Assembly (NCBI GenBank): GCA_016212085.1
Contig: JACRHL010000016.1
Coordinates: 62,001 to 126,000 of the forward strand
Direction of reading: 5' to 3'
DNA: 64,000 nucleotides
From: Nitrospirota bacterium
Lineage (GTDB): Bacteria > Nitrospirota > JACRHL01
Shown here: piece after piece, positions 57,749 to 63,160 of the stretch
Numbering within the stretch: the first letter of the stretch is position 1
How the letters are laid out: each line of letters starts with the position of its first letter
The notes under the pieces: model-generated
The model's database searches: none
Told to the model about the DNA's origin: nothing
Seen by the model: only the letters and a program-made list of their open reading frames with translations
Position numbers and translations under genes: made by a program

Positions 57749-58591
57749 TCAGACCTCGGCGAGCAGGCGGGCGATCAGCCGCTCGCGCTGCTCCGGGCCC
57801 TTGTAGCGGATCTCGATGCGGCCGCTGCGCTTGCCCTCGCTGACCGCCACGGCGGTGCCCAGGCGGGCCTTGAGCCGCGCTTCCAGGTCGCGCAGGTCGG
57901 CGGGCTTCCTGGGCTTGGGGGCGGGCGGTGTCTGCTGCCGCGCGACCACGGCCTCGAGCTGGCGCACGGACAGGCCGTCGGCGACCACCCGGCTGGCCAG
58001 GTTCACCTGAAGGTCGGGCCGGTCGGCGAGGGCCAGCAGCACCTTGGCGTGGCCGAGGCTGATGCGCTCCTCGTGGATGTGCCCCTGCACCGGCGCGGGC
58101 AGGTTGATCAGGCGCACGATGTTGGCCACGCTCGATCGCTCCTTGCCGACCCGCGCGGCCACCTGCTCCTGGGTGAGGTGGAACTCGGTGATCAGGCGCT
58201 GGTAGGCCAGGGCCGACTCCATGGGGTTGAGGTTCTTGCGCTGGAGGTTCTCCACCAGCGCCAGCTCCAGCGACTCGGCGCGGTCCGCGTCGCGGATCAG
58301 GGCCGGGATGGCGTCGCGCCCGGCCAGCTTGGAGGCGCGCCAGCGGCGCTCGCCGGAGATCAGCTCGTAGCCGCCCTTGGGGTTCTGGCGCACGGTGACG
58401 GGTTGCAGCACCCCCTGGCGGGCGATGGAGTCGGCCAGCTCGGCCAGGCCCGCCTCGTCGAACACCACGCGCGGCTGGTAGGGGTTGGGGGAGATGTCGG
58501 CCAGCGGCAGGTCGCGCAGGGTGCCGGTGGCGGTGTCGACGGAGCCGATCAGGGCGCCTAGGCCCTTTCCCAAAGCCTGTCGGGTGGTCAT
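57749..58591 (-). CDS. parB: chromosome-partitioning protein ParB
   Basis: KGLGALIG; ELISGERRWRASKLAGRDAIPALI GERR motif; HTH and C-terminal dimerisation region. Confidence 0.97.
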   Translation of the reverse strand: MTTRQALGKGLGALIGSVDTATGTLRDLPLADISPNPYQPRVVFDEAGLAELADSIARQGVLQPVTVRQNPKGGYELISGERRWRASKLAGRDAIPALIRDADRAESLELALVENLQRKNLNPMESALAYQRLITEFHLTQEQVAARVGKERSSVANIVRLINLPAPVQGHIHEERISLGHAKVLLALADRPDLQVNLASRVVADGLSVRQLEAVVARQQTPPAPKPRKPADLRDLEARLKARLGTAVAVSEGKRSGRIEIRYKGPEQRERLIARLLAEV

Positions 58592-61924: not shown

Positions 61925-62902
61925 TCACAGCCGGACGCTGGCGCCGCCGAGGGGGAACCACTCCGGCTGGGTCACCCACGCCTCGGGCAGCACCTCGAAG
62001 TGGCTGACGTGGGCGCGCCCGTTCTCGATGTCGTGCAGGTCGAAGCCGTCCTTGGCGAGGCAGAACACGAACTGGCGCACCCGGAAGCTGGACTCCACGT
62101 CCGTGGGCGACGGGGGTGACAGGAGCTGGTTGTGGAAGTGGTAGATGCCGGCGTAGTTCCAGCCCGGCATGTGCCCGAGGGTGGCCTTGAAATCCACCGG
62201 AAGCACCAGGTAGCGTGCGTCCGAGGCCGTCTCCAGCGCATATATCACGCTCTCGAACGCCGCCTGCTTGACGTTTTCGGCAAAAATCGGGCTGGCGAGT
62301 ATCTTGCCCACCCGCTCCACCGTGTCGGCATTCATCGCCAGCGCCGCCAGCAGCTCCGCGTTTTCCGGCGCCAGCAGGCGGTCAAGCACCTGTTCCGGCG
62401 GCAGTTTGCGCAGGGTGTCCAGCAGGGCGCCGTTGGAGGAGGGCACCGGGTGCAGCCGTGGCTCGCGGGCCGGGCCCACGGCCAGCACCCCCCCCAGCTC
62501 GGTATCGGTAACCTGGCGGGAGGCCCACAGGGCCAGGTAGATGGCGCGCTTGTCGGCTTCCACATGGGCCGCCACCTCCGCCGGGGTGACCGGGTTGGAG
62601 CGGCTGGCATAGGTGTGCAGCAGCTCCTTGGCATGGCCGATGGCCGTGTAGGGGAATTCGTGGGTGACGATCCGGGTCATCAGCGGGATGCCGGACAGGA
62701 AGGTGCGGTTCTGGTCCAGCAGTCCGCCCTGCGCGTCACCGCTAACGGTCATCAGCGCCGCCAGCAGTTGCAGGTAGATCACCAGCACCGGAACCAGCCA
62801 GTAGTCGTTGAAGAAGCGCCGCAGACGCCCCCACGGGGTGCGCGAGCGCCGCTCCACGCGCACGGGGTGGCGCAGTCTGGATCGGGTGGGGATTCGGATC
62901 AT
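61925..62902 (-). CDS. membrane-anchored protein with C-terminal JAMM/MPN+-like motif, unknown function
   Basis: Single N-terminal TM (YWLVPVLVIYLQLLAALMTVSG); C-terminal NYAGIYHFHNQLLSPPSPTDVESS contains H-x-H-x7-S-x2-D. Confidence 0.7.
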   Translation of the reverse strand: MIRIPTRSRLRHPVRVERRSRTPWGRLRRFFNDYWLVPVLVIYLQLLAALMTVSGDAQGGLLDQNRTFLSGIPLMTRIVTHEFPYTAIGHAKELLHTYASRSNPVTPAEVAAHVEADKRAIYLALWASRQVTDTELGGVLAVGPAREPRLHPVPSSNGALLDTLRKLPPEQVLDRLLAPENAELLAALAMNADTVERVGKILASPIFAENVKQAAFESVIYALETASDARYLVLPVDFKATLGHMPGWNYAGIYHFHNQLLSPPSPTDVESSFRVRQFVFCLAKDGFDLHDIENGRAHVSHFEVLPEAWVTQPEWFPLGGASVRL

Positions 62903-63160
62903 AGGCCCTGTTGGCGGCGGTGATCGGCCACGGAACAGGCGGTTCCGAGGCCGGTCCGCCCTGGGTGCGCGGCAACCCGTGGTGAAACGCCAGCGTTTTC
63001 AACCATTATCGGGCCGTCGTGGCGATTACTGAACCCCGCCGTCCGGCGCCGGTATCACGCCGGCGCCGGAAACCGCTTGCCTAACCCGCCGGGTTTGGTC
63101 CATCTTGAGCTTTTGCCCGCCCGCGTACAACCGGGCGCGTGGACCGACATAAGGAGTGCC

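Follow-up and report, generated by a model that had tools for sequence, protein, structure and literature searches.

Gene, motif and domain layout

The window, that is, the whole 64,000-nucleotide stretch of DNA analyzed here, carries on its minus strand a JAMM-like gene whose features are listed in Table 1. A 263-aa open frame on the plus strand (window 62132-62923) overlaps this gene; the conserved protein is the one encoded on the minus strand.

As claimed in the original prediction, the product contains an exact match to the JAMM consensus H-x-H-x7-S-x2-D near its C-terminus (HFHNQLLSPPSPTD, residues 255-268), and this is the single match to HxHx7SxxD across the six frames of the window. 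Since the mean count of such strings in mononucleotide-shuffled windows is 0.15, the motif by itself is suggestive only. It was counted as real because it is kept in all 25 members of the protein family described below. H255, H257, S265 and D268 are invariant in these proteins, which are down to 25% identical in pairwise comparison, and so is E135. The original prediction had sought the catalytic Glu in the segment FESVIYALE, which was ruled out by its poor conservation, E217 being Glu in 3 and E224 in 14 of the 25 proteins. The predicted catalytic Glu is instead E135, whose match to the JAMM Glu requires that a family-specific insert be left out of the comparison. Also invariant in 25/25 proteins are R18, R19, R28, R29, N32, W35, P38, N65, G71, F83, P84, G89, H90, E93, S128, G137, G138, S155, N157, L164, S227, K239, G243, N258, P264, S272, R276 and G286.

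Table 1. Positions of the JAMM-like gene and of the features of its product within the window
Feature	Position	Strand	Basis
JAMM-like gene, whole	61925..62902	minus	Open reading frame and translation: ATG start, 325 aa; 24 homologues align over nearly the entire length
Arg-rich segment, residues 14-30, predicted cytoplasmic	62813..62863	minus	Invariant R18, R19, R28, R29, then N32, W35, P38; charge counts
Single transmembrane helix, ~residues 36-54	62741..62797	minus	Hydropathy averaging 2.19 across 19 residues, compared with 0.94 for the second-ranked segment
Conserved linker, residues 55-111	62570..62740	minus	N65, G71, F83-P84, G89-H90, E93 invariant in 25/25
JAMM/MPN-like domain, residues 112-306	61985..62569	minus	hhalign match to Prok-JAB with P = 2e-5 at full length, 9.3e-7 with the insert omitted
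E135, predicted catalytic Glu (TDTELGG)	62498..62500	minus	Invariant in 25/25; matched to the Prok-JAB Glu that lies in the E-A/C-C-G-I-L segment
Family-specific insert, ~residues 160-226 (~65 residues), between E135 and HxH	62225..62425	minus	Without Prok-JAB counterpart; its omission makes the two halves collinear
HFHNQLLSPPSPTD	62099..62140	minus	H255, H257, D268 predicted Zn ligands; S265 predicted oxyanion-stabilizing Ser; 4/4 invariant in 25/25

The single N-terminal transmembrane helix that had been anticipated was recovered, with no second segment of similar hydropathy. The top hydrophobic segment is this helix, preceded by a K/R-rich sequence, in 17 of 18 members; in the same proportion of members, the 25 residues before the helix contain 5-9 K+R, compared with 2-6 after it. 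Because the K+R excess precedes the helix, an N-in, C-out topology is predicted with this charge bias as its sole basis, and the JAMM domain probably faces the periplasm. The MPN-like domain itself, expected at residues ~190-325, was found to extend over residues ~112-306 instead and to be split by the insert. Between the helix and this domain, F83, P84, G89, H90 and E93 (residues 83-93, window 62624-62656, minus strand) form an invariant cluster that could have a structural role or constitute a second site.

Distribution and genomic context

The protein family to which the gene belongs is retained across four bacterial families of one phylum. In a first protein search, 12 loci were found in 11 of 61 genomes; a profile search across 396 genomes of this phylum yielded 18 proteins in 17 genomes, and further searches of three families brought the total to 25 proteins (24 homologues in addition to the window protein) in 24 genomes. 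Pairwise identities range from 25 to 97%, with a median of 36%. The gene was found in 4/4 genomes of its own bacterial family and in 7/10, 7/8 and 6/6 genomes of the families f8, f25 and f31, respectively. A single-sequence contig scan matched only a Nitrospira sp. MAG contig, and no relatives were found in viral contigs or in plasmids. One f8 genome (G058) contains two JAMM gene copies on separate contigs (L040 and L041), each adjoining the same kind of transglycosylase gene, which may reflect either a paralogue or a mixed assembly.

The gene order around the JAMM gene is kept within each lineage and differs between lineages. In its own family, the gene is flanked on one side by parB-parA, a GDSL-type hydrolase gene and an SDR gene, with parB ~3.3 kb away in the window (57749-58591), and on the other side by an oxidoreductase gene and a low-molecular-weight phosphatase/arsC-like gene. 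In f25, parB, two bactofilin genes, mnmA and a gene for a small protein whose N-terminus is hydrophobic lie on one side, and rplI, prs and the L25 gene on the other. The order parB, bactofilin, mnmA, bactofilin adjoins the JAMM gene there (L043 3397-8758; L078, L079), as does, at most loci, the gene for the small protein, which is uncharacterized and has no Pfam match. The JAMM gene of f8 is divergent from a LysM transglycosylase gene and two M16 peptidase genes follow. In f31 (L045, L080, L081, L084), the JAMM gene and the end of queC share 8 bases; rplI, nfeD and a stomatin-like gene come next, forming a membrane-protease neighborhood.

Envelope and proteolysis genes recur among these neighborhoods; a common functional neighborhood shared by all four families was looked for and rejected. 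Because nothing is common to all four, the substrate cannot be read from the context, as the original prediction had anticipated from the neighbors in the window. Its statement that no E1/E2 or ubiquitin-like partner is encoded nearby likewise held, since no E1, E2 or ubiquitin-like gene is present among the conserved and Pfam-scanned neighbors, the scan having covered part of the neighboring open reading frames.

Relationship to the JAMM/MPN+ superfamily

To compare the family with known JAMM domains, 30 Prok-JAB sequences of this phylum were assembled into a reference alignment. The profile of the 25-member family matched it in hhalign with a score of 42.1 (P 2e-5) at full length and of 44.5 (P 9.3e-7) when columns 160-226, corresponding to the insert, were omitted. 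With the insert omitted (18 members), the profiles align collinearly over a stretch that runs from the helix preceding E135 to beyond D268, and E135 is placed on the JAMM Glu; the alignment that retains the insert is significant but does not place E135 there. The omission was a choice made after the first alignment, so that the significance of the full-length match is independent of it and the placement of E135 depends on it. In the controls, 100 column shuffles scored at most 23.3, the reversed profile 14.5 and eleven unrelated neighboring families at most 18.2 against Prok-JAB. RadC, an accepted superfamily member, reached 36.0 (P 5e-5) against the same alignment; by this yardstick, the resemblance of the window family to Prok-JAB at least equals that of an accepted member.

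None of the curated models was matched at its cut-off. The window protein does not reach the cut-off of the Pfam Prok-JAB profile (PF14464; 14.2 vs 25 bits), which is a weak match for 5 of the 9 members tested (best E 0.01), none of which passes the cut-off. No relevant match was present in NCBIfam, PADLOC or PHROGs. A PDB profile search aligned the Mov34/MPN chain 2kcq_A across the motif (E 0.96). A uracil-DNA glycosylase chain obtained in a single-sequence PDB search (E 0.0011) was absent from the profile search and was dismissed as a chance match. Elsewhere in the same genome, two ordinary Prok-JAB matches lie over the Pfam cut-off (G000:C22:180628-180951 and G000:C15:140455-140775), and RadC is encoded at G000:C3:28985-29347.

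AlphaFold models of the full protein and of residues 108-306, built from two sequences each, had pLDDT values of 40 and 44, and Foldseek with the low-confidence full-length model returned nothing meaningful. Because of this low confidence, we infer the MPN fold from the sequence profiles. Taken together, the conservation in 25/25 proteins and a Prok-JAB match above all controls bear out the view of a membrane-anchored protein with a JAMM/MPN+ signature, and they support membership in the JAMM/MPN+ superfamily, with the family lying outside Pfam Prok-JAB as currently defined.

Proposed function and relation to known JAMM systems

These findings point to a membrane-tethered JAMM/MPN+ zinc peptidase with a periplasmic catalytic domain, a reading to which we assign a probability of roughly 70%. 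The single N-terminal helix would anchor the protein in the inner membrane, leaving the Arg-rich tail on the cytoplasmic side and the JAMM domain on the periplasmic side. A zinc ion would be held by H255, H257 and D268, the zinc-bound water would be activated by E135, and S265 may stabilize the tetrahedral intermediate. Lying between E135 and HxH, the insert occupies the same place in the sequence as the substrate-binding insertion of AMSH and would probably determine which substrate is cut, most likely a protein of the membrane or the periplasm.

The nearest profile is that of Prok-JAB, and the prokaryotic JAB domains known by 2012 were reported to be intracellular (PMC3482391), so that a membrane-anchored peptidase with a cytoplasmic catalytic domain and, like the classical bacterial JAMMs, a ubiquitin-like or sulfur-carrier substrate has to be considered. 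We regard this arrangement as unlikely: the distribution of charges predicts an outward-facing C-terminus, the inspected neighborhoods revealed no gene for an E1, an E2 or a ubiquitin-like protein next to the JAMM gene, and two ordinary Prok-JAB matches lie at other sites in this genome. Still less probable is a JAMM-fold protein that uses its metal site for non-peptidase chemistry. A nuclease role was proposed for divergent JAB clades such as RadC and toxin JAB (PMC3482391), and both the insert and the HxHN context, compared with HSHP in most Prok-JAB proteins, depart from ordinary enzymes; however, the profile is far nearer to Prok-JAB than to RadC (44.5 vs 18.0), and a periplasmic site would be ill-suited to a housekeeping nuclease. 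A chance occurrence of HxHx7SxxD in a membrane protein without relation to JAMM would agree with the frequency of such strings in shuffled windows and with the lack of a Pfam match above the cut-off, but it is already contradicted by five residues invariant in 25 divergent proteins and by the calibrated match to Prok-JAB, and we consider it very improbable.

The established role of JAMM enzymes is that of ubiquitin-type isopeptidases; their prokaryotic members are mostly intracellular and tied to ubiquitin-like or sulfur-carrier systems. If the reading of a periplasmic peptidase is correct, JAMM chemistry would reach the bacterial envelope in an anchored family that has an intact predicted active site, occurs in four bacterial families and has no such partner nearby, and it would then have to be asked what such a peptidase cleaves in the absence of a ubiquitin-like tail. 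We lean, by a little over even odds, toward a family of JAMM metalloproteases, so far undescribed, that are anchored in the inner membrane, act in the periplasm and operate without ubiquitin-like proteins, the fold having been recruited to envelope protein processing. In line with the suggestion that a membrane-tethered JAMM protein could be undescribed, neither the family libraries nor the searched literature contained a description, and queries that combined JAMM with Nitrospirota or were aimed at membrane-anchored JAMM proteins of bacteria returned nothing relevant.

The window family shares with Prok-JAB the catalytic set E...HxHx7SxxD and the collinear order E-x-x-G-I/V, then Y-x-x-x-P before HxH, then P-S-x-x-D. 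The Prok-JAB matches found here are mostly open frames of 130-200 aa with a short Glu-to-HxH spacing, whereas the window family has in addition the transmembrane anchor, the conserved linker of ~57 residues and the insert, and falls below the Pfam cut-off. The likeness to PDB 2kcq (Mov34/MPN/PAD-1) spans the strand, HxH and P-S-x-x-D region at an E of 0.96 only, and 2kcq is a 153-residue chain without anchor or insert. RadC (PF04002) has the HxH...PSxxD core in common with the window family, which scores only 18.0-18.6 against the RadC profile (Prob ~1%, near noise); this comparison ruled out a kinship with RadC, for which, to our knowledge, no transmembrane anchor has been described. The same catalytic set is present in eukaryotic JAMM deubiquitinases of the AMSH/Rpn11 type, and in AMSH an insertion between the Glu and HxH helps to bind ubiquitin. 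In contrast to these enzymes, the window protein is membrane-anchored, and no ubiquitin system was seen at its locus. The JAB toxin modules of polymorphic toxin systems are JAB domains that leave the cytoplasm, as proposed for the window family, which differs from them as a stand-alone chromosomal gene present in most members of four bacterial families. The window family fits neither the JABs described as intracellular nor those that a 2006 survey linked with E1 and ubiquitin-like genes (PMC1779556).
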